Virus record (IMG/VR): IMGVR_UViG_3300027805_000089
Location: 1 to 23,480 of that record
Length of the DNA: 23,480 nucleotides
Direction: 5' to 3' (one strand)
DNA from: a virus
Positions 3-23,480 of this stretch are shown piece after piece. Both the position numbers and the translations under genes were made by a program. Numbering within the stretch: the stretch's first letter is position 1; each line of letters starts with the position of its first letter. The notes beneath the pieces were generated by a model. It was not told the DNA's origin. It saw only the letters and a list, made by a program, of their open reading frames with translations, and made no database searches.

Positions 3-1193
3 AAGTTGTTCGTAACTGAAGGTGAGCTAGACGCAGTAGCTCTCTATCAAATCTTCAAAGACCATAATAAAGGAACTCCTTATGCTGATCTAAATCCGAG
101 TATTGTATCTCTCGCCAACGGAGCAGGCAGTGCTTCCAAAGATTTAGTAAGGCTACTTCCAGAAATTCGCAAGGTCTTTAAAGAAATCATCCTAGTCTTC
201 GACATGGATGACGTTGGCAAGAAAGCCGCTGAGGATGTAGCAAAGCTCATTCCCGATGTGCTCATCGCTACTCTTCCTTCTAAAGATGCAAATCAGTGTT
301 TGATTGATGGACGTAGCAAAGCGTGTTACAACGCTGTGCAGTTCAATTCACAGAAGCCTAAGAACACACGTATTGTGTCAGCTAGTGAGCTTCATGAGGC
401 TGCTAAAGAACCTCCTCGGTTCGGTGTTAGTTGGCCCTGGGATCACATTACAAGAGCCACTCGTGGAATTCGTACAGGTGAAACAATCTATATCGGTGCC
501 GGTCAAAAGCAGGGCAAGAGTGAAATTGTTAACACCTTGGCGTCACACTTCATGAAAGTTCATGGGTGGAAAGTGTTCCTAGCAAAGCCGGAAGAATCGA
601 ATAAGAAAACTTACAAACTCGTAGCAGGTAAGCTAGTGGGTAAGATTTTTCATGATCCGAATATTCCATTTGATGAGGTAGCATACGATGAGGCAGGTAA
701 GATTATGGACGACAAGTTGTTCATGCTTAACCTGTATCAACACGTTGGTTGGGAAAGTCTGAAGACCGATATCCGTTTGGCAGCTGCTAACGGATGTAAA
801 GCCATCATCATTGACCCAATCACTAATTTAACCAATGGATTAGAGGCAGCAGCAGCTAATGTTAAACTCCAAGAAATCGCTCAGGAACTCTCCGCAATGG
901 CCCTGGACCTTGATGTGGTTATCTTTATCTTCTGTCACCTACGTAATCCTGACTCTGGACCACCTCATGAACGGGGAGGGGAAGTCCTTTCCTCTCAATT
1001 TGCAGGCAGCCGCGCTATGGCTCGCTCTTGTAATCTCATGCTTGGTCTTGAAGGTAATCGTGATCCTAATCTCACAGTGGAAGAGCGAAATCTGAGAACA
1101 CTTGTGTTGTTAGAGGATCGTGAATATGGCGAAGTTGGTAGGTTCCGATTGTATTGGGATCATCGTACAGGATTGTTTCAGGAGATTCATTAA
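3..1193 (+). CDS. Primase-helicase, C-terminal part (5' truncated by window)
   Basis: T7 gp4-like replicative helicase-primase. It unwinds DNA at the fork and makes primers for the neighbouring polymerase. The window opens inside the TOPRIM primase domain: VTEGELDA at about residues 3-10 and FDMDD at about 65-69 (the metal-binding DxD). The RecA-like DnaB-family helicase follows: Walker A GAGQKQGKS at about 164-172, Walker B AIIIDP with Asp270, the H3 element FIFCHLRNP with His311, and a late Arg (R372 in LLEDREYG) where T7 has its arginine finger. The first ATG-like codon in this frame is an internal TTG, so the true start and the zinc-finger primase domain lie upstream. The protein ends in TGLFQEIH and lacks the long acidic, Phe-terminated tail that T7 gp4 uses to contact the polymerase. 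The stop overlaps the next ATG (TAATG). Confidence 0.95.
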   Translation, partial: KLFVTEGELDAVALYQIFKDHNKGTPYADLNPSIVSLANGAGSASKDLVRLLPEIRKVFKEIILVFDMDDVGKKAAEDVAKLIPDVLIATLPSKDANQCLIDGRSKACYNAVQFNSQKPKNTRIVSASELHEAAKEPPRFGVSWPWDHITRATRGIRTGETIYIGAGQKQGKSEIVNTLASHFMKVHGWKVFLAKPEESNKKTYKLVAGKLVGKIFHDPNIPFDEVAYDEAGKIMDDKLFMLNLYQHVGWESLKTDIRLAAANGCKAIIIDPITNLTNGLEAAAANVKLQEIAQELSAMALDLDVVIFIFCHLRNPDSGPPHERGGEVLSSQFAGSRAMARSCNLMLGLEGNRDPNLTVEERNLRTLVLLEDREYGEVGRFRLYWDHRTGLFQEIH

Positions 1194-1375
1194 TGTTAGT
1201 TTGTTGTGAATACAATGGATGTGAAAATGTTGGGGAAGCAGAAGACTTTGAAGACTTAGGCACGCCTTCTAATCACATCTATGTTTGCCAATCTTGTATT
1301 GACAAGGTTGAAAATCAATCAGGATATTGTAGCATGGATTGTCAGTTAGGGTATGGTTGTGATCACAGCTGTTAA
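1193..1375 (+). CDS. Cys-rich small protein, probable zinc binder
   Basis: A 60-residue protein. I chose the ATG that overlaps the helicase stop (TAATG) because AGGAG lies 8 nt upstream (1180-1184). The reading frame is open further upstream, but only inside the helicase gene. It has nine cysteines (residues 4, 5, 10, 32, 35, 46, 50, 56, 60), including a CxxC (CQSC) and two CxxxC pairs near the end (CSMDC, CDHSC), plus His28 and His58. Such spacing suggests two zinc sites or a treble-clef-like knot. I do not recognise the family. Its place between the helicase and a sigma factor makes a role in replication or transcription possible, but that is inference from position only. Confidence 0.7.
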   Translation: MLVCCEYNGCENVGEAEDFEDLGTPSNHIYVCQSCIDKVENQSGYCSMDCQLGYGCDHSC

Positions 1376-1403: not shown

Positions 1404-1883
1404 ATGAACATTCCTGATATCGAAAAACACTACATTGAAAACAAAGATAGGCTGATTAAGCGTACTTCTTTTCGTATCGGTGGTAATTTCCACGGTGCAG
1501 AAGATATCGTTCAGACAGCTTATGAGCGTAGCATTCGTTACGCTTCAAGTTTCAATGGTGAAGTGTTTGACAAATGGTTCAATACGATATTGAACAATTG
1601 CCTTCGTGAATATCAAAATGAAGAACGGGGGTATGTTGGTATAGACGAGGAAGCTGAAGAAGAAGCGGAATCCCTAGCATGCCCCCATTTTCCTACTCAC
1701 GTCATGAGGGAAATCTTCGAACTGATTGAGACGAAGAGTGTTATTCAGATTGAAGTGTTAACATTATACTTCCGTCATGAATACTCAGCAATTGATATCA
1801 GTCGTATTACCAACATACCATATAAGACGGCTCATCAAATCATTCAAAGGTTCCGTAACGAACTAAAAGAATTGTACAAATGA
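1404..1883 (+). CDS. ECF-like RNA polymerase sigma factor
   Basis: A 159-residue two-domain protein with the layout of group 4 (extracytoplasmic function) sigma factors. Region 2 spans about residues 10-75, with GAEDIVQTAYERSIRY (the usual -10/core-binding helix, DAEDLVQETF in typical members) and FDKWFNTILNNCLREYQNEER. A very acidic linker follows (about 80-90). A region 4 helix-turn-helix spans about 113-157 (VLTLYFRHEYSAIDISRITNIPYKTA, then IIQRFRNELKELYK). It would bind host RNA polymerase core and select phage promoters. The gene sits between the primase-helicase and polymerase genes and its TGA overlaps the polymerase ATG (ATGA). AGGA at 1390-1393 is a possible ribosome site. The target promoters cannot be seen, because both operons start outside the window. 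A plain DNA-binding HTH protein is the alternative. Confidence 0.8.
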   Translation: MNIPDIEKHYIENKDRLIKRTSFRIGGNFHGAEDIVQTAYERSIRYASSFNGEVFDKWFNTILNNCLREYQNEERGYVGIDEEAEEEAESLACPHFPTHVMREIFELIETKSVIQIEVLTLYFRHEYSAIDISRITNIPYKTAHQIIQRFRNELKELYK

Positions 1884-3760
1884 AAATAGCATTGTTCGAC
1901 CTAGAAGCCAACGGATTTCTCGATGTAGCAACTCGCGTTCATTGCGGTGTTGTTAAGACGAAGGGTGCAGGGGTCAAACAATTTCGCCCTAATGAAATCC
2001 AGGCATTACTTGACCATCTAGGAACATTCGATGTTCTTATTGCTCACAACGGGATTGGTTATGACTTTCCGTTGTTAAAGAAGCTCTATGGTTGGGAGTT
2101 TAAAGGTAAAGTAGTAGATACGCTCATCATGAGTAGGTTACTAGACCCTAATAGACTACTACCTTTTCACTGTCCAAATCGTAGAGCCGGCCCACATTCT
2201 ATTGAGGCATGGGGCTATCGGGTTGGTAGAGGTAAACCCGAACATGATGACTGGGAGAATTTCTCCGAGGAAATGCTTCATCGTTGTACTGAGGATGTAG
2301 AGATTCTCGACCTAGTATACGATGAACTACTAAAGGAAGCCAAGGGTGGTAACTGGCGTAACGCATTCCTCCTCTCATTCGAACTGTTCACAAATCTCCA
2401 GAAGCAAGAAGAGTATGGATGGAAGGTTGATATTGAGCACATGGAGATGTGTATCAGACAACTTACCAAATGGATTGAGCGAATCGACAGGGTGATTACA
2501 CCCAAACTCCCCGATATTTTGGAGATAAATGAACAAAAAGTCTCAGGTAAAATCAAGTACATCAAAAAACCTTTCCTCAAGTCCGGGCAATATTCGGCGT
2601 CTGTTCTTAACTGGTGTATTGATAACGGTATTGACCCTTCTCTTCGTCCCGTCGTTGGCTGTTATTCTCGTGTCTCTTTTCGCAAAGTAGACCTAAACTC
2701 CAACGAAGAAACAAAGAACTTCCTCTTATCTTTAGGATGGGAACCTATTGAATGGAACACCAATGATGCTGGCGAGCGAACTAGCCCTAAGCTCAGCAAA
2801 GACGACCCTTTTGAAGGGATTGAAGGCAAGCTTGGAAAGCTTGTTGCTAGACGGGTGCAATGCCGACAAAGGCGTGGAATTATTGAGGGTTTACGTGAAC
2901 TTGTTCGACCGGATGGACGAATTGCAAGTGTCGTTAACACTCTTGCAGTTACCGGACGTGCAACCCACCGTAACATCGTCAACATCCCTAAGCCATCTAG
3001 CTTCTACGGAAAGCAGATGCGGAGAATCTTCACCAGTGCCGACGGCTATACCCTGGTCGGATGTGATTCAGCAGGTAATCAACTAAGACAACTTGCTGCA
3101 CGGATGAACAATCCTGAGTTCATCTATGCGATGGTGTCTGGAAAGAAAGAAGATGGTACTGACCCTCACACTCTCACCCAGCGAGCTGGTGACCTTGAAT
3201 CAAGAGACATTGCTAAGAACACAATGTATTGTCTCTTGTTCGGAGGAGGAGATGCAAAGCTTGCAAAAACAGCTAAGAAACCCCCAGGATCAGGCGCTGA
3301 TCTCCGTGATCGGCTCTATCGAGGTCTTGACGGTCTTGGCGCATTGATGGAGCGTTTGACAAAAGAATGGCGATCAACGGCTAAGCAACGTTTCAATCCT
3401 AAGTTCAATCGAATGGAATATTTCGATGGACGTATCACTGGTCTAGACGGTAGACCAATCCGTGTTCCTTCAGAACATCAGCTTTTAGTTTATCTCTTAC
3501 AATCTGACGAGGCCATTCACATGGCAAAAGCATACAACATTATGTGTGCTGACTTATCTAAGAAGTATCGTTGGGAAATAGACTACGGCGTTGTTTGTTG
3601 GTACCACGACGAATATACCGTTGAGTGCCGTCCTGAAATTGCAGAAGATGTTAAACACATCATGGAAGATGCAATACGTAAGGCTGGCGAATTCTTTAAT
3701 ATCTCATGTCCTCATGCTGGAGAAGGCTCCATCGGAAAGAACTGGTATGAAATTCACTAA
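1880..3760 (+). CDS. Family A DNA polymerase with 3'-5' proofreading exonuclease
   Basis: A 626-residue replicative polymerase like T7 gp5. The exonuclease motifs are FDLEANG (D7, E9), AHNGIGYDFPLLK (D62) and CTEDVEIL (D139). Polymerase motif A is VGCDSAGNQLRQLAARM with catalytic D396. Motif B is RDIAKNTMYCLLFGGG with R442, K446, Y450 and F454. Motif C is WYHDEYTVE with H576, D577 and E578. It ends in NWYEIH, resembling the T7 end. It is about 78 residues shorter than T7 gp5 (704), consistent with no thioredoxin-binding insertion in the thumb. There are two unusual residues. Gln401 stands where T7 E480 and E. coli Pol I E710 sit. Phe454 stands where Pol I Y766 sits, while the 762-equivalent is Tyr450. 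The start overlaps the sigma stop (ATGA) and the stop overlaps the next ATG (TAATG). Confidence 0.97.
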   Translation: MKIALFDLEANGFLDVATRVHCGVVKTKGAGVKQFRPNEIQALLDHLGTFDVLIAHNGIGYDFPLLKKLYGWEFKGKVVDTLIMSRLLDPNRLLPFHCPNRRAGPHSIEAWGYRVGRGKPEHDDWENFSEEMLHRCTEDVEILDLVYDELLKEAKGGNWRNAFLLSFELFTNLQKQEEYGWKVDIEHMEMCIRQLTKWIERIDRVITPKLPDILEINEQKVSGKIKYIKKPFLKSGQYSASVLNWCIDNGIDPSLRPVVGCYSRVSFRKVDLNSNEETKNFLLSLGWEPIEWNTNDAGERTSPKLSKDDPFEGIEGKLGKLVARRVQCRQRRGIIEGLRELVRPDGRIASVVNTLAVTGRATHRNIVNIPKPSSFYGKQMRRIFTSADGYTLVGCDSAGNQLRQLAARMNNPEFIYAMVSGKKEDGTDPHTLTQRAGDLESRDIAKNTMYCLLFGGGDAKLAKTAKKPPGSGADLRDRLYRGLDGLGALMERLTKEWRSTAKQRFNPKFNRMEYFDGRITGLDGRPIRVPSEHQLLVYLLQSDEAIHMAKAYNIMCADLSKKYRWEIDYGVVCWYHDEYTVECRPEIAEDVKHIMEDAIRKAGEFFNISCPHAGEGSIGKNWYEIH

Positions 3761-4696: not shown

Positions 4697-4715
4697 AATG
4701 TCGAATTAATAAGAT

Positions 4716-4747
4716 AATGAGAGTATAATATATTTTATACTCTCATT
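4716..4747 (+). promoter_or_regulatory. Perfect 13-bp hairpin just upstream of the HNH gene
   Basis: The arms AATGAGAGTATAA (4716-4728) and TTATACTCTCATT (4735-4747) are perfectly complementary, with a 6-nt loop TATATT. The right arm ends 4 nt before the HNH ATG (4752), so folding would cover the region where the ribosome loads. Hairpins that hold back translation of free-standing homing endonucleases are known in T-even phages. The left arm and loop also contain TATAAT (4724-4729), a consensus -10 hexamer, but I see only a weak -35 match. No U-tract follows, so it is a poor intrinsic terminator. Confidence 0.6.
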
Positions 4748-11305: not shown

Positions 11306-11581
11306 CTACTTCCTCTTTTTTCGTGGATCGTGTTGATTCAATGCACGATTCTTACTCTTAGACATTACGCTGAGGTTCTTGGCACTCTTGTCCGAGGTGT
11401 TGTGGTTACGATGATCAACATCTTTACCATCCCCTTTTCGTACATGCCCCTTACGCTCCATTATCGCCCGTGCATGATTACGTTCAGCACGACGCTTCTT
11501 CTGCTCAGGCTGAGAATTATACTTTCGCTGACGAATCGAATCAGCCTTAGCGTTCTTTTTAAATTCACCCTTCTTTGCCAT
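11306..11581 (-). CDS. Small basic HNH-like protein
   Basis: A 91-residue, very basic protein. The C-terminal half has GDGKDVDHRNHNTSDKSAKNLSVMSKSKNRA, which matches the DH..(N)..NLxxxSxxxNR core of HNH-fold proteins, and the N-terminal half has KYNSQPEQKKRRAERNHARAIMERKG. No CxxC zinc pairs are present. Such small proteins are frequent in phage structural operons and may be minimal HNH nucleases or DNA-binding relics; activity cannot be decided here. The ATG overlaps the stop of the previous gene (TAATG on the - strand). An HNH of this kind near packaging or structural genes might aid DNA packaging, by inference. Confidence 0.75.
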   Translation of the reverse strand: MAKKGEFKKNAKADSIRQRKYNSQPEQKKRRAERNHARAIMERKGHVRKGDGKDVDHRNHNTSDKSAKNLSVMSKSKNRALNQHDPRKKRK

Positions 11582-12024
11582 TATTTTCCTAGTGCTTGTG
11601 CTAGTGCTTCCTCAAGTGCTTTGCGAGCCACTGCGTGAGGAGCTTTCTTGATTTCGTCTCGTAGTTCAGCGATATACTTAGGACTCTTCATATACGCTTG
11701 TCTAGCAGCTTCTTCTTGTGGAGTGAACTTCACTGCTTCTCTCATACTCTTTTCAGTAGGATAGTGAGCCTGGAATGGTTCTTTAGGTGTAGATTCCTGT
11801 GTAGGCTCTTTAGAAGGCTTTGGAGCTTGTTTTTCAGCTTCCCTAGCAATCACCCCCCAGTCCATCAACCAGGGCTTTACAGCGCGTTTAATCGTCTCCA
11901 CAACTCCAGTTGGTTGCTTAGGAGAAGCTTCAGGGATTTCAGTCCCCGAAGCCTTAGCAACTTCTTGCCATCCTAATTTCCAAGGAGCATTAGGATCATC
12001 TGCTGGCTTTTGCTCTTCAGCCAT
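11581..12024 (-). CDS. Hypothetical structural-operon protein, Pro/Lys/Glu-rich
   Basis: A 147-residue protein. I chose ATG 12024 (MAEEQKPADDPNAPWKLGWQ), 1 nt after the stop of the 596-aa gene and behind GGTGGAGTGAG. A longer frame to 12192 would run 56 codons into that gene and is unlikely. The N-terminal part has PWKLGWQEVAKASG and VKPWLMDWGVIARE. The middle is Pro/Lys/Glu-rich and probably disordered (QAPKPSKEPTQESTPKEP), and the C-terminal 45 residues are helical (KSPKYIAELRDEIKKAPHAV). No family is recognised. It may be a minor virion protein by position. Confidence 0.65.
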   Translation of the reverse strand: MAEEQKPADDPNAPWKLGWQEVAKASGTEIPEASPKQPTGVVETIKRAVKPWLMDWGVIAREAEKQAPKPSKEPTQESTPKEPFQAHYPTEKSMREAVKFTPQEEAARQAYMKSPKYIAELRDEIKKAPHAVARKALEEALAQALGK

Positions 12025-12025
12025 C

Positions 12026-13816
12026 TCACTCCACCTTTTCCCAGTTCTTAGGATCGTCGAATCGTCCACCCTTAGACTTATAGCCGTTAACGATAACGCC
12101 AGCACGAGCAGGATAGATTTGAGGCAGGTAGAGATACTTATTCTCTTCCCAATACTTAGCATAGTCCGTATGACCTTCCATATGAGCACCAATACGAACT
12201 AATTGATTGATACCTGCTTTGACAGAGTTGAGTTCGTTAACAAGCTTAGTCTGTTGACCAACTTCATACGTTTCCATTGCTGGCTGTTGGCGTACATCAA
12301 ATGTAATACCAGAACCAGAAAATCGTACATCGATAAGAGAACCAATCTTCTTAGCTGATACTCCCCCACCCCCCTGGAAGTTCTGCTGAGCCGTGTCTAG
12401 ACGATTTGTAATACTCTGCTGAACAGCAGGGATATACAAGGACTGGAACGTCATCTTAGCAGCTTGTGCAGCTTCTGGATTTAATTTACCAGAGCCAGCA
12501 AACTTACCATATTCAGGACTGGCGAAGAACTTAGCTATATCAGTCATCTTAGAGGCATCTAAGCCTCCCACCTTCAGAGCATCACCTGTTTGTTTCAACA
12601 CTTGGTTGATAGAACTAGTGAGTTCTTGTGTAGCCTTCCCATTATCTTTGAACCCACCTTCGTTAACCTTCTGTAAGGAACGCCCAAGGAAGTTCAACAC
12701 GTCTTTTTCCGCTGTAGGATTACCTACAACTTGCGGAACATACTCACCCGGCTGTGCATCTGCATTCGACATACGACTGATAAAGTCAGCAATCGGAGCA
12801 GAGGCATTCAACGCCGTAATAGCCTGTCCCCCTAATAGTTCATTCGCTACAACAACTGCCTTCATCTTAGGATCAGTTGTAATACCAACAAGCTTTGCTT
12901 TGTTGATAATCGCCTTAAATTCTGCTTCAGTCGCTTCATTACGCGTTTTTGGATCAGCAATCTTAGTACCTAGGGTACGAAGCTCGGTGAACAGAGAGCG
13001 ATATGGAGAAGCTAATTCAGGATTGATACCAGCAGCAGATTGGAGAGCAGCTTCAATCTGAGAGAATTCATTGGTAATTACCAAAGCAGCTTCTTCATAT
13101 GTCATCTTACCTGCTCCAAGGTTTTGAGAAACATTGGTTAGGAAGCTTGACATACGATTCAAATTAGCTCCAGCAATATCAGTAATCATTGCTGATGCAC
13201 GAGCTTTAACTTCTCGGTCATTCACCTCTCGCTCTTCACGAGATAGAGCCATCCGATGAGACTGCTGTTTGATGATACGATCTAGATCACGTTCGTGACG
13301 TTCAGACAACTCCGAAGCTTCAAGTGTTTGATTCAGAGTGTTCTGATCCATCCAGGCATATACAGTTGCTCCACGAGACTGAGCACGACTGATACGTCCT
13401 TTTTGAATTTCTTCAGCAGCAGCTACACTCTTCTCAATAGCACCAAGTTCACTGCCACCAGAAAGTGCAGTACGAGCTTTAGAAATAGCTTCGATGTACG
13501 GAGCATATCCAGCCGCATACTCACCAAACAAGGCACGGCTCATTGTAGCAGCACGATCAGGACGAAGCTCACCATTAGCTACAGCACGATTAATTTTCTC
13601 TTGTCGTTGCACATATGACTGAACGACAGTGTTCTCAGCATCGATCTTCGCTTGCTTTCGAGCCTCACCAAGGCCCTTTACAAAGATATTGCCAACGTCA
13701 GCAACGACAGGCATAATGCTTGTATCAACAAATTGTTGTTTTACCGGAGCTACAGGAGTGGCTCCCGCAGCTTGTGGCTGCGAGAGTTCCGTAGCTTGAG
13801 GGCCAAATTCAGCCAT
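12026..13816 (-). CDS. Internal virion (ejection) protein, gp15-like position
   Basis: A 596-residue protein, largely helical and Ala/Gln-rich, with N-terminal low complexity (ELSQPQAAGATPVAPVKQQF) and long predicted helices at about 120-220 (many Glu/Arg heptad-like runs such as SELSERHERDLDRIIKQQSHR). The C-terminus is richer in Tyr/Trp (YAKYWEENKYLYLPQIYPAR). Position and composition fit the second large internal-core protein of T7-like phages (gp15), which is ejected into the host envelope to form the DNA conduit. AAGGA lies 8 nt upstream of the ATG. It begins 4 nt after the stop of the 1706-aa gene. No enzymatic domain is seen; the role is assigned by context. Confidence 0.65.
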   Translation of the reverse strand: MAEFGPQATELSQPQAAGATPVAPVKQQFVDTSIMPVVADVGNIFVKGLGEARKQAKIDAENTVVQSYVQRQEKINRAVANGELRPDRAATMSRALFGEYAAGYAPYIEAISKARTALSGGSELGAIEKSVAAAEEIQKGRISRAQSRGATVYAWMDQNTLNQTLEASELSERHERDLDRIIKQQSHRMALSREEREVNDREVKARASAMITDIAGANLNRMSSFLTNVSQNLGAGKMTYEEAALVITNEFSQIEAALQSAAGINPELASPYRSLFTELRTLGTKIADPKTRNEATEAEFKAIINKAKLVGITTDPKMKAVVVANELLGGQAITALNASAPIADFISRMSNADAQPGEYVPQVVGNPTAEKDVLNFLGRSLQKVNEGGFKDNGKATQELTSSINQVLKQTGDALKVGGLDASKMTDIAKFFASPEYGKFAGSGKLNPEAAQAAKMTFQSLYIPAVQQSITNRLDTAQQNFQGGGGVSAKKIGSLIDVRFSGSGITFDVRQQPAMETYEVGQQTKLVNELNSVKAGINQLVRIGAHMEGHTDYAKYWEENKYLYLPQIYPARAGVIVNGYKSKGGRFDDPKNWEKVE

Positions 13817-13820
13817 CTTA

Positions 13821-16800
13821 CTATTCCTTAATTATTGCAGAACGAGCGTTCCGCGCGTCTTCAAGACGTTTGATATACATTTCTTTCTGCTCATCAGAGA
13901 TAGGAGCATTCCTAATTTGATCAACAGTTGCACCGAATTCAGGCAGATCAACCCACTTCATCATCATCCTCATCAGTTGATTATCCTTACCAGATAGGTC
14001 TTTGTTCAACTCAGTACGGATAATATCCATAGCGATAGTACTATCCTTGTACGCATACAGGATGTGACCAGTTACCATCTGAAGCTGTTTAGAATCGGTG
14101 ATGCCTTGTTGGAAAGCGTTCTGATAATACTGCTTGATCTCTTTGTAAACTTGCTTTACTTCTTCTTCATACTTCTTTGTACCTTCAGCAGCAAGCATTT
14201 GAGTCTTGTACAGATCATTTGCTGTTTGCGTACCAAAGCCAAATAGCTGCATGATAGCTTCTAGTTTGTTTACATTTGGATCAATTGTATTACCATATTT
14301 GTCCATCAATCTACCTTGTTCAAGTACTTGACGGGACTTCATGGCATTATTCCAACCGGATGCAATCTTGGCGATTTCGTTCACAACAGCGATTGCTTCT
14401 TCGTTAGTACGAGTACCAGGGGTCCACGGACTGAAGAACTTAGCTGTCTGACTAATTGCACTTTGGATACGACCACCATCAGCAAAGAACATTTGACCAG
14501 ACGGACTGTTAATCAACATCTGCTCAATACCGCCGCTGAACATAGCTTTGAAGAACTTAGCCCATCCATCCATGCTATATGGAGCCAGAGATGAGTAGTC
14601 AATTTGAACTGTCTCGCCTAGCATATCAGACCAGAATTGATTCAGCACGAACGATTGTAAACCATCGGTCACAATCTCATGAAGCTTCGGGTCTTCAGGT
14701 GTAATGTCTCCACTCATCACAGAGCTAATCAGCGCAACAGGGGCACCCCACATCACCATATCAGCCACCACCATACGAGCACGTAGGTCAGCAGGAATAC
14801 GACGATTAGTAGCTTGTAAGAAAGCCTTGTGAGGAATCTGCATGAATTGCAGCAGAGCAGCAGCGGCTGTCTGGTTATATGGCATGTCACCAGCAAAGTT
14901 CATGTCGTAGCTAATTGCTCGAACTTCCGACTGTGCTTCACGAAGTACAGTAACATCATCCATATTCTTCCCTGCTCGCTTGTATTTATCGAATACAGCA
15001 GCAGCGTGTCCCAGTAGGTTGATACTTTCGCCTACGTCAAAGCCAGCTTTACGCGGCAATTCCAATCCACCTTTTACAATACGTCCTGCGCGGCTAGTAC
15101 TTTCAGCAGCAGCTAACAGACTTCCTCTAACGAGGTTCTGTTTATCCACGGCAGTAAGCAAACCACTCTCATCAACAAATCGTGTGAACTGGCGAATCTC
15201 ATTAGAGACGTTAGACAGTGTTCCACCAATGTTACCTAGATAACCCCCAGTCAGCACAGGCATCTTACCTGTTAACCAAACTTGAGGATTATACGCAAGG
15301 GTGCGGACAATCTGGTTGGTTTGAACAAGCCAGTTACGCAGAATGTTTGTTCCGATGTATGCTTGGAATACGAAGTTCTTAGCAATACCTGTTGGACCTT
15401 GAGGCATATCAGCTAAAGCGCCAGTGACACGTTCAGCTTTCGAAGCACCAAGTTCACCCATCTTCGTGCTGAGAGAATTTAATCCAGCCTTGACCATCTC
15501 ATCAATCGTGTTGATATATCCGTTCTCAAGGTAATGGATGTATTCCCATGTAGTGCGAGCATCAGCAACGTGTGTATCAAATTGCTTACCCTTGGCACCA
15601 ATCTGACTCACTTCACTTGGAAATACTTTATTTCCCATTCCATTAGATTGCAGCACATCACCATACTGTTGAATGAATCGTGCCTTAGCAGATTCGAGCA
15701 TAGGACGATTTACTGTACGACCAGAGATGCTCTTAGCTGCACGAATAGCACTCTCAACAGGGTTAGCAATATAGCTGCCATCTCCTAGATGGTTCAGGCC
15801 CGAAGCTTCTTCCAGGAATTTACCACGATGCTTTTGAGCAATACGTCCACGGACAGTGTTGAGGTCAAACCAATCATCACTACCACGACTTACGGCTTTG
15901 TCGTCTCCACGTACATCATATGCCTTATCAGGGTTTAGACGTTTTTGACGTTCTGCAAAGTGTTGTGCCTCTTTTGTATCACCAGCAACAGCAATGGCTT
16001 TACGCATCACTTCCTTACCGTTTGTGTCATACGAGATTTCATCAATGAAGCGAGGAGCTTTATATTGAATCTGGTAGTAACCATTACGGTAGTTGAGCAC
16101 TTCATCAGTGTCACGGAATTTACGCAGATACTCAGTAGGAGTATTGCGTACAATCATGTACTCTGTTGTATCTGTTACTGTACTAACGCCTGACTTAGAA
16201 GGCATCCCAAAACTAAATTCTGTGGGCCTACGAAGTTTAGCAATTGTACCACCTTGGTTATAAAGGTCATCAATTGTGTCGGCAGATAGTGTGACAACCA
16301 TTCCGGTTGAGGGATCATAGATTTTTCCAAGTTGTCTATTCTTTGCAATAGGACGAGCATACAATTCAGTTTGCCCGTTCTTGAAGAGTTGAAATCCTTG
16401 AGCATTCAGGGTACGAACAACGTCTTGGTTCTCAAGAACGTAATGTACATCCCAGAAGTCTCGCCAATATTTAAGTACATCAGCTTCCGTATCAGTAAAG
16501 CCTCGTGCCATCAGGTCAGCACGGTCATACGCGATTTCCTTGAAGTTAGCTTCCTTGATGTAGTCATCGACCTTGGCTTTACGAGCTTTAGGAAGTTTGA
16601 CATATCCATCTGAGAAGCGAGTAGCAATGTCAAGCATTTGCTTCTCAAATTTAGAAGTGATGTCAGTAGCAACAACAGCAGACCCACTTAGACGCTTAGG
16701 AAGCATCGAAGCAGCATCAGCCAAGTGACGACTAACGCTTCCAGTACGATTCCAAACAGCAAAAGGAATTCGATCAAAGAAGTTCAGACGTACTGTATCT

Positions 16801-18941
16801 TTGTCATCGAATCGTCCAATTGTTGTAGGATCAACTTCATGTCGCGTATTGATACGAACTAAATAGCTACCTTCCTTACCTGCAACATCTGCAAGATTAA
16901 CTGGAACATAGTCTAGCCCTTGCTTAGACAGAACCTCGATTTCATCATCGCGAATTCCATAATTACGCAGGGCATACTTAGCTTGATCAACAGCTTGCTG
17001 TGCATTAGAGAATGCACCTTCTTTCGTACCATAAACGGCACTGATTTCAATGTTCGAACCATCAATCTTAAAGCCGCTCTCAAAACTACCCATTGCATCA
17101 TTAGGCACTAGGTCAGTTGAATCAGAGAAATCTTTAACGATGTTCGAACGAGCACGAATCATCTCATCCTTCGAATAGTGCATAGCTACGTCACTTGTAC
17201 GCAGCATGCTCTGAATCTCAGAGGCTAATTCAGGATCAAGACGTAAGCCACGTTGAATATCAACAGGCTTGGCTGCAACAGCACGAGAGGCTGTTTTGGC
17301 TTGAGGATACACGTCATTAATCAAAGCTTGGGCTTTGTTAACTCCGTACAACCCTTCAGCAACTGCATCATCAACAGACTTAAACACTGCTTCGTGCAAG
17401 CGACGAGCTTGAGCAGGATTTGCTTGTTGGATGATGTTTGCAACAGATGCAGGGTTCTCAATACGCACCACCGAGTTTACGTCAATACGACGAATAGCAT
17501 CAACGATAGGATTAAGAGGAGCTAGTACAGGAGTGTTTCCTTTGTTTAGCTCTGCAATTTGTTTCTGGAGATTGTCAATACGTTGACCAACCGTAGCTGC
17601 TTTGGCATTAGCAGCAATTTGATCATCAATACGTTTAACCGAATCTTGATATGCAGCAAAGGCATCATCAAGCTCTTTATTAGCTTGAGTCAAGGAAGCT
17701 TTGTATGACTTTCCTGAATCAGCTTGAATTTCTTTAGCTCGTGCTTTACGACCAGCATCTGTAACATCAGGTGCGACAAGTTCTTTGCGTTCTTGACGTA
17801 GAGTACGAATATCCCCCTTACCAGCAAGATTACCAGCTTCGCCAATTAATCCTGCCACTTCTTCTTGAAGCTTTGCAATCTGAGCGTCATTCTTTCCCGT
17901 CATCGGAGGAGACACTTTAGATACTTCAACGGGAGGAAGATTAGGACGTGTCTCTGTTGCTACTGTACCAGCTTTACCTGCTGCAGCAACTTTGGTTGCT
18001 TGACGTCCTTTAGACACTTCACGCAACACTTGACCAATACCGATAATGTCCAAAAGGAACGAAGCATTGTCAATGAATGCATCTACACTGTCATATCCAT
18101 TCTCAGCAAACACAGCTTGTGCTTTTTGGAATTGATTGAACTGATTGTCATTAGTAAACAGAATACCACTGTTATTCTTGATAATGCCAAGAATTTTATT
18201 AGTGTATTCTACTTGACCTTCAGGAGGGATAGAAGCAAGTTGCTTACGCATATCCAAAACGGTTGTTCCAGCTTGGAAGGTAAGTGCTTTAATGGAATCC
18301 CATACAGACAATTTACGACCTTCAGCTTCAGCTTTGGATTTAGCAATCTTATAAGACGATACACCAGCTCCAAACGGGGCTAAGACAGCTTCTAAGAAGT
18401 TAAGGGCTACCCCGGTATCTAAATCGCTTAAAGTGGCTCCATGAGCGTTTACGAGGGCTTGTACACGATCTCTAGCTTCGTACATTTCTCGCAAAGCATC
18501 AGCAGTGCTAATACGAGCGTCCTCAGCTTCAAATGTTTCATTGTCACTGGCCGCTTCTAACGCACGAGTAAGCAGAGCTGTACCAGAATCTTTCAGGACT
18601 GGATCAGTACGTAAAGCGTTCATTGCTCTACGCTTCTGGTCAACTGAAATTGAAGGATCAGAGAGCACATTCATAATGGCTCTCATGTCCCGCGTATTAT
18701 CTTGTTTAAAGAAGTTACTAAACGAATTTTCAACTGGGCTTTGATCACCAGATTCGCTTTGCGCTAACGTTGCCTGATATCGCTCAACAACATTTTCAGG
18801 TTCTCCAGATAGCAAAACTGCAGATGCCGAACGATTACGCAGTGTAGCTAATGGAACAGGGTTTAATTGTGTTTGAGGAGCTACCGCCTCAAGTTGTACT
18901 GGTTCGCTAGGAACTTCTGCAATTTGATCTAGAATATCCAT
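13821..18941 (-). CDS. Very large internal virion (ejection) protein, gp16-like
   Basis: A 1706-residue protein, the largest gene here. The N-terminal 100 residues are Pro/Gln-rich. A coiled-coil-like stretch occupies about 345-470 (AQIAKLQEEVAGLIGEAGNL, TVGQRIDNLQKQIAELN). The C-terminal half has semi-hydrophobic helical segments (for example near 1250-1290 and 1420-1450) that could insert in a membrane. The position after gp13- and gp14-like genes, and the size, fit the T7 gp16 class of ejection proteins. T7 gp16 has an N-terminal lytic transglycosylase; I see no such catalytic motif here. Gene order is large-then-small, opposite to T7 15-16. No good ribosome site is visible at 18941; coupling to the gene ending at 18943 is likely. 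Confidence 0.7.
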   Translation of the reverse strand: MDILDQIAEVPSEPVQLEAVAPQTQLNPVPLATLRNRSASAVLLSGEPENVVERYQATLAQSESGDQSPVENSFSNFFKQDNTRDMRAIMNVLSDPSISVDQKRRAMNALRTDPVLKDSGTALLTRALEAASDNETFEAEDARISTADALREMYEARDRVQALVNAHGATLSDLDTGVALNFLEAVLAPFGAGVSSYKIAKSKAEAEGRKLSVWDSIKALTFQAGTTVLDMRKQLASIPPEGQVEYTNKILGIIKNNSGILFTNDNQFNQFQKAQAVFAENGYDSVDAFIDNASFLLDIIGIGQVLREVSKGRQATKVAAAGKAGTVATETRPNLPPVEVSKVSPPMTGKNDAQIAKLQEEVAGLIGEAGNLAGKGDIRTLRQERKELVAPDVTDAGRKARAKEIQADSGKSYKASLTQANKELDDAFAAYQDSVKRIDDQIAANAKAATVGQRIDNLQKQIAELNKGNTPVLAPLNPIVDAIRRIDVNSVVRIENPASVANIIQQANPAQARRLHEAVFKSVDDAVAEGLYGVNKAQALINDVYPQAKTASRAVAAKPVDIQRGLRLDPELASEIQSMLRTSDVAMHYSKDEMIRARSNIVKDFSDSTDLVPNDAMGSFESGFKIDGSNIEISAVYGTKEGAFSNAQQAVDQAKYALRNYGIRDDEIEVLSKQGLDYVPVNLADVAGKEGSYLVRINTRHEVDPTTIGRFDDKDTVRLNFFDRIPFAVWNRTGSVSRHLADAASMLPKRLSGSAVVATDITSKFEKQMLDIATRFSDGYVKLPKARKAKVDDYIKEANFKEIAYDRADLMARGFTDTEADVLKYWRDFWDVHYVLENQDVVRTLNAQGFQLFKNGQTELYARPIAKNRQLGKIYDPSTGMVVTLSADTIDDLYNQGGTIAKLRRPTEFSFGMPSKSGVSTVTDTTEYMIVRNTPTEYLRKFRDTDEVLNYRNGYYQIQYKAPRFIDEISYDTNGKEVMRKAIAVAGDTKEAQHFAERQKRLNPDKAYDVRGDDKAVSRGSDDWFDLNTVRGRIAQKHRGKFLEEASGLNHLGDGSYIANPVESAIRAAKSISGRTVNRPMLESAKARFIQQYGDVLQSNGMGNKVFPSEVSQIGAKGKQFDTHVADARTTWEYIHYLENGYINTIDEMVKAGLNSLSTKMGELGASKAERVTGALADMPQGPTGIAKNFVFQAYIGTNILRNWLVQTNQIVRTLAYNPQVWLTGKMPVLTGGYLGNIGGTLSNVSNEIRQFTRFVDESGLLTAVDKQNLVRGSLLAAAESTSRAGRIVKGGLELPRKAGFDVGESINLLGHAAAVFDKYKRAGKNMDDVTVLREAQSEVRAISYDMNFAGDMPYNQTAAAALLQFMQIPHKAFLQATNRRIPADLRARMVVADMVMWGAPVALISSVMSGDITPEDPKLHEIVTDGLQSFVLNQFWSDMLGETVQIDYSSLAPYSMDGWAKFFKAMFSGGIEQMLINSPSGQMFFADGGRIQSAISQTAKFFSPWTPGTRTNEEAIAVVNEIAKIASGWNNAMKSRQVLEQGRLMDKYGNTIDPNVNKLEAIMQLFGFGTQTANDLYKTQMLAAEGTKKYEEEVKQVYKEIKQYYQNAFQQGITDSKQLQMVTGHILYAYKDSTIAMDIIRTELNKDLSGKDNQLMRMMMKWVDLPEFGATVDQIRNAPISDEQKEMYIKRLEDARNARSAIIKE

Positions 18942-18942
18942 A

Positions 18943-19473
18943 TTATTGAATTACTGAATCGTAATTAACGATGTTAGGTTTTGGTGTTGTTGTGGCTGGC
19001 GTCTTTTGGAATCCCCCACTTGCACTGAAAATATTTAATGCAAGTCCACCAAGAGAACGGAACGATTCGGAATCAGCCATAGATTGTTGAGATTGGAAAC
19101 TAAAATCAGCAGCGCGTTGATTAAAATCACTAATAGCAACAGACTTTTGTTGCATACCTGCATTAAATCCCATGTTAGAACCTAGTTGTGTAGAAAGACT
19201 TGCAATACCGCCTGTCTCACCAGAACTTCCAACAGTTCCTGTATTCTGGGATGATTGAAGGATACGTGCTCGACGAATACGCTCTTCTCTAACTTGTCGT
19301 CTGCGTTCTGCAGCAGCCTGGGAAGCATTAACCGCTTTTTGCTCGGCTTGAGCATTTCTTTGTTGTGCTGCTGCTGCCCCGGCTGCTGATTTAGCTTCTC
19401 GACGAGATTCTTCTCCTTGGTAGTAACTTGCAGCAGCTACTACGGCGGCAATAGTCGTTGTTAACGCTGCCAT
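18943..19473 (-). CDS. Internal virion protein, gp14-like
   Basis: A 176-residue protein. A short hydrophobic Ala-rich N-terminus (MAALTTTIAAVVAAASYYQG) precedes a long charged helix rich in Ala/Gln/Arg (REAKSAAGAAAAQQRNAQAE, RRRQVREERIRRARILQ). A Gly/Ser/Gln-rich region (TGTVGSSGETGGIASLSTQL) and a second short hydrophobic segment (SLGGLALNIFSASGGF) follow. Length and layout resemble T7 gp14 (196 residues), the smallest ejection protein, which forms the outer-membrane part of the DNA channel. The ATG overlaps the stop of the GNAT gene (TAATG). The assignment rests on position and composition. Confidence 0.7.
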   Translation of the reverse strand: MAALTTTIAAVVAAASYYQGEESRREAKSAAGAAAAQQRNAQAEQKAVNASQAAAERRRQVREERIRRARILQSSQNTGTVGSSGETGGIASLSTQLGSNMGFNAGMQQKSVAISDFNQRAADFSFQSQQSMADSESFRSLGGLALNIFSASGGFQKTPATTTPKPNIVNYDSVIQ

Positions 19474-19937
19474 TATTTTTCCTTTTCTTTAATATATCCA
19501 GTCTCGCCCATACGAAAACCTCGTTTTTCAAGTGTTCTAGCGTTAATATTACTTGACGGAAGAAGAGAAAATGTAATTACATCTTCTCTTTCTCCCCTTT
19601 CAATAAACGCATTAAGTAACAAAACACCTGCGCGACTTTTTCTATATTGTGGTAATATATACCAGAATAATTCTATACATTCGACAATACTAGGATTATA
19701 TAGGTTTGGAGCAATTATCCCAGCAATAGCCCCTATAGGAACACCATTATATTTGGCTATAAAAATGGATTCTTGTTCCATACACCGTACTGTAAGACTA
19801 TATAAATGATTTATATTGATGAGCTCTGGTCGTTTTAGTTCATGTTCTAACATGGAAGTTGCAGCTACTTCTACAAACCACTCAACATTTTCTAAACGAA
19901 GATTTTCAACAGTATATTTATGTAACTGAGTTTCCAT
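19473..19937 (-). CDS. GNAT-like acetyltransferase-fold protein, gp13-like position
   Basis: A 154-residue GNAT-fold protein. IFIAKYNGVPIGAIAGIIAP matches the strand 2-4 region, ELFWYILPQYRKSRAGVLLL carries the acetyl-CoA loop (Q/R-x-x-G-x-G/A read here as RKSRAG), and SSNINARTLEKRGFRMGETGY matches the last conserved block. T7 gp13 sits at the same place and shares the GNAT fold, where it helps virion assembly. The loop lacks the second Gly of the classic motif, so activity is uncertain. The start overlaps the nozzle gene by 20 nt and there is only a weak ribosome site (GGAA 12 nt upstream). Confidence 0.78.
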   Translation of the reverse strand: METQLHKYTVENLRLENVEWFVEVAATSMLEHELKRPELININHLYSLTVRCMEQESIFIAKYNGVPIGAIAGIIAPNLYNPSIVECIELFWYILPQYRKSRAGVLLLNAFIERGEREDVITFSLLPSSNINARTLEKRGFRMGETGYIKEKEK

Positions 19938-22215
19938 TGATAGAAATATTCCATCCTACGGGTTGACAATCCTTACCGGGTTGCGTCTCCATGTGGAAAG
20001 CAAATGCCCTTCCTCGTCCACGAAGTTTATTACGTGTCGTGATAATCTCAAAACCCATGTCGTATGCGTCTTCAGAATTATTCACAAGATAAACCTGCTT
20101 TAAACGATATCCTTGAAATTGACTTGACCATTTATTAGAATTTACGCTATTTGCAAAATCCCACTGAGTACGTACTAAACATCCCGACTGATTCTCAGGA
20201 ATCATTTCATCATCTACACCATTCTCGGTTCGATTAAAGTGAAGAATGAGATAAGGAGTTTGTTTAACTGCAGAAGAATCTCCTGCTGTAACAGCCCCTG
20301 TCGTGAAATATCCAAATGCGTCAGTTCCAACATTATCAACAGACTCCCAATCAATCCAACGGGTATTGTTGTAATACCCGAATGTAATTTTAGGAACACC
20401 TGCTACCAGTACGATACAAAGATATCGCGTACTAAGAATTGACGAACCTTGACTTGCAACTTCAACCACAACCGTATCCAAACCTACTACAACTTCGTCA
20501 GTTCCTACAACCACCACATTTGGAACAAAGTCAGCAGTAAAAGGAGTTGCAGCAAAAGGAGCGGAAGCAATAGCTTCGTTATCAGGAGAATTGTAAATTC
20601 TGAACTTATAAAAAGCACTAATAACAACGTCAAGGATTAGTTCGTAAGTTATATGATCCGCAGTAAATGGAGTTCCTGTAGAGTAAAGCCAACGAATAGT
20701 TTTACCAGCCGAATCAAACACACCAACAGCTTGTTCACGAGACGCTGTAGGAATTTCTTCATACAATGTCTGAATAGTTGTTTGAGTTAGATTACGAGCA
20801 GCAAAATCACCAATCTGATTGCGCTCTAAGATGTAGATGCCATCAGTAGCCCAATATAAAGCAGTACCACCGTCATCTACAATAGATGAACGAGACAGTG
20901 CACCGAACGAGGTAATCTTGTTAACTTTGTAGTTTGTTGCTGTAAAGCCATAGTCACTACCTCCCGTTACAGACCAAACACCATTGGAAGCAAACACAAT
21001 TAAGTGAGTACCTAAATTTACCATTGAAACAATGTTATCTGCTCCAGCTATACGAATGTATCCACCGTCAGTATCAATAATATCACTGCCATCTCTAGAT
21101 GTAGGATCACCTTCTTGGTAGCACTTCACAATGTCTTCAGTGTTTTTAACCAACTGAGAGAATAGAATGTGATTAGACAGATTAGGGCTTCGTTTATCCC
21201 CATCTACCACAATACCACCAAAACCAGCAAAAAACACCCGCCCTGCAAACTCACAAATGATCTTGGCGCCACCTTGAGTGGCATCAGTATTTGTTGTAAA
21301 TGATGCTAGAGCAACAGCAGGATGTTTAGCCTTGTTTGTAGAAACAACAGCAGAACGAGATTGTCCACGATTTAATACATCAATAATGAAATAGCCCTTA
21401 GCTGCTTTCACTTTAGAACCGAATGTATCAGTATATAGATTTGGATATTGACGTTCAAAAGGAGTACCACCAACAACTGCTTGGAAATCCAATCCAGACC
21501 AAACAACTTCCGAATTACTCGGATATTTACTTAATCCCGAAAAGTAGTTGTTTACCGCATCTACAAGTGTACCAGAAGAGTTACTTCTTGGGATTCCCCA
21601 CGATTGATTGTAGAGATTGTAGAAATGATCATTACGAGAAACTGTTCCTCGATATTGATCGTCGGTTTCATATGCGGATTCATCAGTAACTTCCACTCCC
21701 CATACATCTCGTACAAGAAGTGTTCTACCTGTTACTGTAAATCCAGTACCATTGTAACTAACAACAGCAATTTGATTTTGACCAGCAGCAACTACCAGCT
21801 TACCATCAACCGCAGCAAAAGAATACTGAACAGTTGTAGGAAAAGATAAACTTGTTAAATCAATCGTATCAATAAGTCCACCAGTGGACAGAGATTGATT
21901 AGCTAAATCAAAAATATAAAGTTTGTTACGAACTTGAACAACTAGATAATTACGACTACCATTACCCCCTACATTCATCCATCTAAATGTAATTGGTTTA
22001 GTGTTTTGTATGTCATCAAGCGTAGCATCAATATCAAACAATGTATAACCAGGTTCTAGGTCCATACCAAGACGGCGATTACGCGTGCCATTTCGATTAA
22101 GAACAAAGTTCTGTTCATCCACTGTTGCGTTGCCCGGAAAGTTTAACGGGCTTGCTTCAGTAATTAAGCCTTGTACAAAGCTATTAACTTCTGCCTTTGT
22201 TGACGTCTTTGTCAT
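19918..22215 (-). CDS. Tail tubular protein B / nozzle protein (gp12-like)
   Basis: A 765-residue protein. I chose ATG 22215 (MTKTSTKAEVNSFVQGLITE) because AAGGA lies 8 nt upstream; the frame extends 14 codons further without a better site. EVNSFVQGLITEASPLNF, VDEQNFVLNRNGTRNRRLGM and IVSMVNLGTHLIVFASNGVW are typical of the beta-propeller nozzle proteins of T7-like phages. The downstream part is beta-rich. It would form the distal end of the short tail, through which DNA leaves. It lies directly after tail tubular protein A and one small gene, as expected for 11-12 order. It overlaps the small gene by 32 nt. Confidence 0.85.
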   Translation of the reverse strand: MTKTSTKAEVNSFVQGLITEASPLNFPGNATVDEQNFVLNRNGTRNRRLGMDLEPGYTLFDIDATLDDIQNTKPITFRWMNVGGNGSRNYLVVQVRNKLYIFDLANQSLSTGGLIDTIDLTSLSFPTTVQYSFAAVDGKLVVAAGQNQIAVVSYNGTGFTVTGRTLLVRDVWGVEVTDESAYETDDQYRGTVSRNDHFYNLYNQSWGIPRSNSSGTLVDAVNNYFSGLSKYPSNSEVVWSGLDFQAVVGGTPFERQYPNLYTDTFGSKVKAAKGYFIIDVLNRGQSRSAVVSTNKAKHPAVALASFTTNTDATQGGAKIICEFAGRVFFAGFGGIVVDGDKRSPNLSNHILFSQLVKNTEDIVKCYQEGDPTSRDGSDIIDTDGGYIRIAGADNIVSMVNLGTHLIVFASNGVWSVTGGSDYGFTATNYKVNKITSFGALSRSSIVDDGGTALYWATDGIYILERNQIGDFAARNLTQTTIQTLYEEIPTASREQAVGVFDSAGKTIRWLYSTGTPFTADHITYELILDVVISAFYKFRIYNSPDNEAIASAPFAATPFTADFVPNVVVVGTDEVVVGLDTVVVEVASQGSSILSTRYLCIVLVAGVPKITFGYYNNTRWIDWESVDNVGTDAFGYFTTGAVTAGDSSAVKQTPYLILHFNRTENGVDDEMIPENQSGCLVRTQWDFANSVNSNKWSSQFQGYRLKQVYLVNNSEDAYDMGFEIITTRNKLRGRGRAFAFHMETQPGKDCQPVGWNISINGNSVT

Positions 22216-22405
22216 TATTGTTATCCTTAGAAGGTTTACCGTCCAAATACATGTCAATTAACGTTTTAACAAATGTAGGAGAAGTAAACATTCCTGCCAT
22301 AACATCAGGGATTTTTCCTCCCCGACCTGCTGTAACAACAATATAGCTTGTTGGGAATTGTGCGTGGGGCTTAATTTGGTAGCCCTTATATTCAATTACG
22401 TGCAT
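22184..22405 (-). CDS. Small hypothetical protein between tail tube genes
   Basis: A 73-residue protein. MHVIEYKGYQIKPHAQFPTS and YIVVTAGRGGKIPDVMAGMF form a compact, probably beta-alpha domain (the phrase EYKGYQIKPH...YxVxxxGRGGKIP looks like a small recurring phage family). A hydrophilic tail (DGKPSKDNNNDKDVNKGRS) follows. The ATG overlaps the tail tubular A stop (TAATG). The last 32 nt overlap the nozzle gene and include that gene's ribosome site. Function unknown; perhaps a minor tail or assembly protein. Confidence 0.7.
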   Translation of the reverse strand: MHVIEYKGYQIKPHAQFPTSYIVVTAGRGGKIPDVMAGMFTSPTFVKTLIDMYLDGKPSKDNNNDKDVNKGRS

Positions 22406-23163
22406 TAGCGACGACCTTTTCTACCGAAGTCTTGGTAACGCACACCACCGTGTGCTCTCCAAGCTTTACGAGAAAGCCAGCGTTGTTGACGACTAGATTT
22501 CTGTTCGGCTTTTTGATTAACCATTTGCTTTAACGTGATAAACGCTGTACTCTTTGCTTCTTCCAGGAAAGCAGGGAATGCTTCAATAGGAAGATCAGGA
22601 ACAAAATCATCTTGTTTTGTCCATGTCGGATACAGATATGCCAGACATTGTGTTTTAGATGATTGTAGCGTTGTATCTAAAGTCTTATTATATGAATCAG
22701 TAACGATATATTCATCATCAAACGAAGTCCAGTATGTAGGAGCTTGATCATTTTGAATCAAAAGCACTACACCACTAAAATCAGTTACGGATTCAATGTT
22801 TGTATGTAAACTGTTTCGATGAGCCAAATACACCAAGAATTCATCTGGGTGTTTATACTTCAGCTCTTTCATATCACTCTTGTCAGCTACGTCTTTCTTA
22901 GCTTCATACTTTAGAAATTCCATTTCCTTTAGATTTTCAGGAAGCTTTAGATAATTGGGTTTTGTAACACTACCGGATGCTTCAAGCTGAACAAGATTTT
23001 TCATATGCGGCCAATTACGATTGGTCAGCATCTCGAAATAGCACGTTTTCAGAATTTGTGCTATTTGTGCAGATTCAACAGTGTCATTGATGCTGTTAAC
23101 TTCATCAGCATCCATGTCATTGAGAATGTCTTGCACCATTTCAAGAAGAGTCATCTTAGCCAT
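22405..23163 (-). CDS. Tail tubular protein A (gp11-like head-tail adaptor)
   Basis: A 252-residue protein. The N-terminus MAKMTLLEMVQDILNDMDAD and EVNSINDTVESAQIAQILKTCYFEMLTNRNWPH are the hallmark of the T7 gp11/P22 gp4-like adaptor family that binds below the portal. Other features are the central beta segment (FSGVVLLIQNDQAPTYWTSFDDEYIVTDSY) and a highly basic C-terminus (QQRWLSRKAWRAHGGVRYQDFGRKGRR). It is longer than T7 gp11 (196). It would seal the portal and start the tail tube. The start and stop both overlap neighbours by TAATG. Confidence 0.88.
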   Translation of the reverse strand: MAKMTLLEMVQDILNDMDADEVNSINDTVESAQIAQILKTCYFEMLTNRNWPHMKNLVQLEASGSVTKPNYLKLPENLKEMEFLKYEAKKDVADKSDMKELKYKHPDEFLVYLAHRNSLHTNIESVTDFSGVVLLIQNDQAPTYWTSFDDEYIVTDSYNKTLDTTLQSSKTQCLAYLYPTWTKQDDFVPDLPIEAFPAFLEEAKSTAFITLKQMVNQKAEQKSSRQQRWLSRKAWRAHGGVRYQDFGRKGRR

Positions 23164-23480
23164 TATTTCACCATGTGCATTACAACAGCTAAATCGCTCA
23201 TGATAATACTTCCTGTCGTATCAGAAGCAACCACAAGTTGAATGTAATTATTAGCAGCTAATGAAATTAATCCCGTAGCAAATACTTGTTTTACATCACC
23301 AGCCGATGTAGATTTATTCATCACTTTTTGCGAAGAAACAGTAGTTCCATTAACGCGGTAGCGAAAAGCAATTTTAGCTGTATTAGATGGAAACCCTGTT
23401 ACAACACCCCACATAGAAATGGAATAAACTCCCGTTTTTGAAACGGTTAGTCGGTCAGTAGAAAAAGTAATTCCTTCTAA
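23163..23480 (-). CDS. Virion protein with jelly-roll-like C-terminus (5' part outside window)
   Basis: The last 105 residues of a gene that continues beyond the window on the - strand; the frame is open to the edge. The visible part (LTVSKTGVYSISMWGVVTG, IAFRYRVNGTTVSSQKV, NNYIQLVVASDTTGSIIMSD) is a series of short beta strands with the C1q/TNF-like pattern of phage head-fibre, decoration or tail-fibre tips. It is just upstream of tail tubular protein A in transcription order, where capsid-related genes are expected, so a head decoration or fibre role is plausible. The identity of the missing N-terminus is unknown. Confidence 0.7.
   Translation of the reverse strand, partial: LEGITFSTDRLTVSKTGVYSISMWGVVTGFPSNTAKIAFRYRVNGTTVSSQKVMNKSTSAGDVKQVFATGLISLAANNYIQLVVASDTTGSIIMSDLAVVMHMVK

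Follow-up and report, generated by a model that had tools for sequence, protein, structure and literature searches.

The stretch of DNA analysed here (the window) comprises all 23,480 bp of its IMG/VR record, which consists of a single contig and no others. It derives from a Zobellviridae-like podophage, of which it represents a 23-kb fragment, and its tail and sigma genes show 24-40% identity to those of Zobellviridae (PA11, O4, GP100, CVT22, CW02 and oyster metagenome phages). The replication genes lie on the + strand and reach position 11122, and the virion genes run on the - strand from 23480 to 11306, so that the two blocks converge (Table 1), as the sequence-only reading of this DNA had described for the structural genes. 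The same reading had placed a sigma factor gene between the helicase and the polymerase; the gene is indeed found there, together with a Cys-rich ORF in the helicase/sigma interval, and its stop (1883) is overlapped by the start of the DNA polymerase ORF (1880). The + strand further holds a PHROG_862 protein, HNH-like nucleases, an exonuclease-like ORF, ThyX and a B12-type ribonucleotide reductase. The - strand encodes tail proteins and a protein of 1,706 aa at the place where relatives have an internal virion protein. The capsid genes and their promoter are located beyond the contig end, and the main late promoter would thus be outside the window.

An adjacent gene for a cognate anti-sigma is common, though not universal, among ECF sigma factors. 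No anti-sigma was recognised in any of the annotated neighbourhoods of the sigma gene, and here the gene is immediately preceded by the Cys-rich ORF. Its letters read MLVCCEYNGCEN...CQSC...CSMDCQLGYGCDHSC, ORFs with the same ending precede the sigma gene in L084 and L085, and the product is possibly a small zinc protein.

Table 1. Features of the window, with coordinates, strand and the evidence on which each assignment is based.
Feature	Coordinates	Strand	Evidence
Primase-helicase, truncated at the left contig end	3..1193	+	PHROG_239, E 1.4e-115
60-aa Cys-rich ORF in the helicase/sigma interval	1193..1375	+	relatives in L084, L085
Predicted site TGTCGA-17-GATATATG, -10 box overlapping the sigma start codon	1376..1406	+	motif scan, relatives
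Phage ECF-type sigma factor, 159 aa (region 2, flexible linker, region 4)	1404..1883	+	
Sigma region 2, residues 12-75, AEDIVQ...WF..ILNN; core binding and -10 recognition	1437..1628	+	Pfam Sigma70_r2 residues 16-70; RpoE region 2 structural match
Sigma region 4, residues 98-157, helix-turn-helix for the -35 box	1695..1874	+	alignment, profile, structural match
Recognition helix HQIIQRFRNELKEL, residues 144-157	1833..1874	+	near or identical to the helix of relatives with a TGTCGA box
Family A DNA polymerase	1880..3760	+	PHROG_17, E 3.1e-105; PF00476
Predicted site TGTCGA-17-AGTATAAT, gap before the HNH gene	4699..4729	+	motif scan; own score P 0.065
Late (virion) block, convergent with the replication block	11306..23480	-	ORF map, PHROG matches
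Weak candidate site TGTCGA-17-GGTATATA within the acetyltransferase ORF, late strand	19656..19686	-	motif match

The sigma ORF starts with ATG. As a single sequence, it matched Pfam Sigma70_r2 near the curated cut-off (24.6 bits in six-frame translation and 23.4 bits for the protein alone, with the cut-off at 24), and the signal for region 4 was weak (Sigma70_r4_2, 15.1 bits, cut-off 25.7). PHROG_1740, 'RNA polymerase sigma factor', aligned with residues 3-158 (E 2e-15). A single-protein search of IMG/VR gave no relatives and an alignment-based search was needed; the resulting family alignment contains the window protein and 35 IMG/VR relatives with 28-73% identity. This 36-member alignment and its profile remove the doubt left by the threshold-level scores. 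All 36 members matched Sigma70_r2 and 11/36 matched Sigma70_r4_2, and the family profile recovered SigW (5wuq, E 2.4e-16), E. coli RpoE (1or7, E 2.2e-10) and AlgU-type sigma-H (E about 3e-11), each over both domains. Both the region 2 helix and the region 4 helix-turn-helix noticed from the letters alone are kept. The conserved columns of region 2 in the family alignment are A32, E33, D34, Q37 and W58.

The AlphaFold model of the protein (pLDDT 84.8) displays two helical domains joined by a disordered linker (residues 80-95), and the top of the Foldseek list against PDB consists exclusively of ECF sigmas. Comparison with RpoE and SigW had been proposed as a check, and the two domains of the model fit the RpoE complexes separately, region 2 matching RpoE-R2 with -10 DNA (4lup, 2.1 A) and region 4 matching RpoE-R4 with -35 DNA (2h27, 3.0 A). 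Whole-chain TM-scores are low because the orientation of the domains is free. The protein is made up of regions 2 and 4 with a short linker, regions 1.1 and 3 are absent, and the chain terminates two residues past region 4. In sequence as well as in fold, the best matches are ECF sigmas and not other sigma groups. These data confirm ORF 1404-1883 as a true relative of bacterial ECF sigma factors.

Searching 21 named Zobellviridae-type records with a 13-member sigma profile, we found the sigma in 16 of them; the profile had no match in VpV262, SIO1, ICBM2, MEP402 and T5S1_444551. In VpV262 there is no room for a sigma gene between helicase and polymerase, and the ORFs inside the corresponding SIO1 gap are not sigma-like, the profile being negative in both. 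T5S1_444551 was dropped as a sigma-negative case, as the break of its 'circular' assembly falls exactly between helicase and polymerase. This record (PQ867842.1, T5S1-k141_444551) is labelled complete and circular, yet it is broken between the polymerase and helicase ends and the sigma region is missing. In OX241559.1 the profile matched positions 28087-28640 (-) in two separate stretches covering profile positions 1-81 and 79-160, so that the sigma gene of Vibrio phage 468E53-1 may be split or frameshifted. Wherever the annotation was examined, the gene is flanked by the primase-helicase and the polymerase, sometimes with a small ORF intervening. Exactly one sigma was present in 19/19 IMG/VR records of at least 39 kb that were found independently via the capsid protein.

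We also searched for the T7-type single-subunit RNA polymerase (PF00940), with T7 polymerase itself as a control, which was found at 1e-110. The sequence-only reading had seen no such enzyme in the window and had named a phage RNA polymerase elsewhere in the genome as the finding that would speak against it. PF00940 matched neither the window nor any of the 24 + 23 related records, and in this respect these phages differ from T7-type phages.

In sigma carriers, a gap, often AT-rich, separates the short linker ORF behind the portal gene from the scaffold gene. Word searches such as CTNAAAN{3,8}GTATATA caught the motif in this gap only partly, and an unsupervised, ungapped model was used instead on 43 non-redundant gaps before scaffold genes. 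The model converged on TGTmgAAAA-n-CTAAAA-n-GGTAT at the gap start (43 loci), with a log-likelihood of 264.7 versus 89-111 in eight dinucleotide-preserving shuffles. Written as boxes, the motif is TGT(C/A)GA, 17 nt and G(G/A)TAT(T/A)A(G), with -10 sequences like GGTATTAG, and computationally it has the two-part layout typical of promoters of ECF sigma factors, in which separate -35 and -10 boxes stand about 15-17 nt apart. It occurs in coding DNA (the linker ORF end) as well as in non-coding DNA, so coding constraint fails to explain it. Nearly every genome examined has predicted sites upstream of its scaffold and capsid genes, and such sites often also stand before the late operon and before helicase-sigma-polymerase or the sigma gene itself. 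The pooled motif found no capsid site in T4S1_502, Vib468 and T5S1_181, and PA11 and Klyazma fit it poorly. The promoter motif had been called unknown and possibly new, to be sought in the full genome; a motif can now be predicted from the capsid gaps of relatives. In L120-L191, the stretch from the capsid promoter to the scaffold gene often contains inserted tRNA-like sequences, which would ride on the late transcript.

Individual genomes use the same -35 letters repeatedly: G039 has three copies of TGTAGAGA, G013 three of TGTATAG, T4S1_462 three of GTAACAAAAT, G053 two of TGTATCCGATTGT and CW02 two of TGTAGAGATT. Ten genomes have, besides the capsid site, another late-strand site within the early region, and we compared the two. 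The -35 identity was 9.3/10 within the same genome versus 5.39 between different genomes (0 of 200,000 permutations) and the -10 identity was 7.2 versus 5.53 (147 of 200,000), whereas the spacer identity of 6.1 versus 5.42 of 11 was not significant (33,154 of 200,000). The compared sites of one genome are kilobases apart, and recent duplication is ruled out as the source of the shared -35 boxes, as the similarity does not extend to the spacers. When the capsid site was masked and the genome's own 7-letter -35 word was searched together with a -10 box at the right distance, 36 further sites were recovered in 18 genomes. With words swapped between genomes 8.0 would be expected, and 0 of 100,000 swaps reached 36. 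At least one further own-word site was present in 17/18 genomes, though some of the single matches are surely due to chance.

The own-word sites lie upstream of the primase-helicase in T4S1_462, Vib1253, G010 and G037, directly before the sigma gene in G013 (196 nt), over the sigma start in G054, and also elsewhere on the early strand. The late-strand site in the early region of Vib1253 is positioned 564 nt before the first late gene. Such sites are often kilobases upstream of the late genes, toward which they point, and antisense to early genes, and they may also silence early genes or yield short RNA. Second late-strand sites in the early region were seen, for example, at 46118 (-) of the CW02 record, at 9803 (+) of T5S1_444551 and at 5502 (-) of GP100; downstream of the T5S1_444551 site there is a strong hairpin, GGGGGCC-TTGT-GCCCCC. 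Among the lineages, the -35 words include TGTCGA, TGTAGA, TGTCCA, TGTATA, TGTATC, GTAACA, TGGTGA and others.

These differences between the -35 boxes follow differences in the sigma protein. Across 28 genomes, -35 distance correlated with the distance of region 4 (r 0.40) and of the recognition helix (r 0.49), both at 0 of 5,000 permutations. The correlations persisted when region 2 was removed (0.35 for region 4 and 0.45 for the recognition helix), and region 2 given region 4 retained only -0.08. Mantel tests remove shared ancestry incompletely, and these values are protected mainly by the control that uses region 2 of the same protein. The pattern was reproduced with 25 genomes, where the spacer, serving as an internal control, did not correlate with any sigma region. 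Because the -35 box tracks region 4 and its helix and the spacer does not, the analysis argues that the box is read by the sigma itself and not by an unrelated activator.

The recognition helix of the window protein, HQIIQRFRNELKEL, is near or identical to those of G029, G054, G009 and G040, whose -35 word is TGTCGA. The pattern TGTCGA-17-[G/A]nTAT has three matches in the window. The sites at the sigma start and before the HNH gene are the two best window motif matches, both with the exact 17-nt spacing. Two sites scoring at least 13.8 have P 0.005 in first-order simulated sequences of 23 kb, and the best one alone has P 0.065. The third match, found on the late strand, is inside coding sequence and may be due to chance. 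Sites overlapping the sigma start codon were likewise seen in L076, L077, L079 and L081 and in the complete genome G054, where the -35 word is the same as in the capsid promoter of that genome. In L076 the start codon is placed elsewhere and the site is nevertheless kept; an ATT start codon considered for this gene was dropped in favour of an in-frame ATG 9 nt upstream. Just before the HNH gene, an inverted repeat, ATGAGAGTATAA-tatatt-TTATACTCTCAT (4717-4746), overlaps the -10 box of the predicted site and could be an operator or a hairpin.

A sister clade offers a comparison. No sigma profile match was obtained in MEP402 and 12 related records, most of them partial. In this clade, TTGACt/a, 17 nt and TATAAT (one TATACT) precede the linker and scaffold genes at 14/15 non-redundant loci, and sigma70 scores are 12.1-14.3, compared with at most 9.9 near the gap in sigma carriers. 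The position differs too, the promoter being before the linker ORF in the MEP402 clade and after it in sigma carriers. The capsid region thus carries a promoter in both branches, of the phage type where the sigma is present and of the sigma70 type where no sigma is detected.

Taken together, these results make it very probable that the ECF-type sigma directs the RNA polymerase of the host to phage promoters of the middle and late classes; in several relatives it would also feed back on the operon that encodes it. The sigma would be transcribed together with the replication genes, and its region 2 would bind the host RNA polymerase core and take it to TGTCGA - 17 nt - G(G/A)TAT(T/A)A promoters, where region 4 would read the -35 box and region 2 the -10 box. 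From sites before helicase-sigma-polymerase, the sigma would feed its own operon, and the late genes would be switched on afterwards; for the window phage, the corresponding late promoter would lie outside the contig. RNA started at the sigma-start site would encode the polymerase and downstream genes without a full-length sigma, and the sigma would thus be capped. The earlier proposal that a phage ECF-like sigma redirects host polymerase to the late genes finds support in the fold and sequence of the protein and in predicted late and capsid sites that track its recognition helix. As for its role as a late switch, the late and capsid sites agree with it, but an exclusively late role does not fit, given the early-strand sites before helicase-sigma-polymerase or the sigma gene in several relatives.

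A different division of labour is known from T4, whose middle promoters use an activator (MotA) together with host sigma70. A separate MotA-like phage activator could bind the -35 box here and recruit the host sigma70 holoenzyme, leaving another role to the ECF-like protein, and the -10 box GGTATTAG does retain TAT-A letters in common with TATAAT. We consider this improbable, since the -35 letters follow the sigma's recognition helix beyond region 2, the -10 box is also shared within genomes, and sigma carriers have no sigma70-consensus promoters at the capsid gap. The absence of such promoters, where the phage-type motif is found before the capsid genes instead, bears equally on the idea that the sigma serves middle genes only and that late genes are read by the host sigma70 holoenzyme or an undetected phage RNA polymerase. 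The sigma70 consensus promoters near the capsid genes of the sigma-less MEP402 clade and the predicted sites on the early strand would be compatible with that idea, but with PF00940 matchless in 47 related records it appears highly improbable.

Phage core binders of the inhibitor kind exist, and a sigma fold encoded within the replication operon would also suit a sigma-derived inhibitor that occupies the host core and shuts off host transcription and does not start phage transcription. Of the explanations considered, this one is the hardest to maintain, and we give it hardly any credence: the protein retains region 4, including the helix that reads DNA, and promoters of matching specificity are present in 17/18 genomes. 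Steering of host polymerase by the sigma remains our preferred reading.

The protein resembles E. coli RpoE and B. subtilis SigW in fold and in both DNA-binding domains; no anti-sigma partner was recognised near its gene, and its -35 letters differ from the GGAAC of RpoE. The Zobellviridae sigmas of PHROG_1740 (PA11, O4, TC6, CVT22 and CW02) belong to the same family, with a full-length profile match and the same position between helicase and polymerase. These relatives are usually annotated 'RNA polymerase sigma factor' already, by similarity only, and the CVT22 sigma is mentioned in PMC4505115. Another phage-encoded protein of this type is gp36 of phiEco32, a Kuravirus ECF-type sigma which is reported to bind E. 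coli RNA polymerase (Savalia 2008, as cited in PMC7881722); the phiEco32 record likewise has no T7-type polymerase match. However, gp36 matched our family profile weakly and over region 2 only (E 0.003) and not over the two domains, and its gene lies among other genes, apart from the polymerase. With gp36 as a precedent and the family already annotated in five phages, a small phage sigma is not the first of its kind.

For phiEco32 and its relative 7-11, promoter models describe short elements of 9 bp that resemble an extended -10 (PMC4331800), whereas the Zobellviridae-type sites have a clear -35 box. ECF41 promoters, TGTCACA-n16-CGTC (PMC3426412), share the spacing and have a very similar -35 box, and the two-domain sigma core is alike as well. 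ECF41 is nevertheless cellular and carries a fused C-terminal regulatory domain, while the phage protein has no C-terminal extension, and the -10 boxes differ (phage G(G/A)TAT versus CGTC in ECF41). In the databases and literature searched, subscription papers excepted, we found no Zobellviridae promoters, mechanism or co-varying sigma/-35 pairs. The phage ECF-type sigma is thus known as a kind of protein, and the predicted promoters and the sigma-matched -35 words are new to these sources.

On this basis the family might form a natural collection of sigma/promoter pairs that differ from one another, with a private -35 word and a matching recognition helix in every lineage. Within a genome the words would change in concert at several sites, which would provide a readable code and insulate the promoters from host and rival phages, and in the window clade the start-codon site would serve self-limitation of the sigma. 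We regard this wider proposal as evenly balanced. From the co-varying pairs one could derive the code by which ECF region 4 recognises DNA, and they could supply the laboratory with orthogonal promoters. The virions of SIO1- and VpV262-like phages are T7-like although these phages have no T7-type RNA polymerase, and the literature searched gave no answer to how the late genes are switched on in these relatives. In the MEP402 clade, which has no detectable sigma, sigma70 consensus promoters stand at the same genes. For the large sigma-carrying branch, the answer offered here is a private ECF-type sigma with defined predicted promoters.
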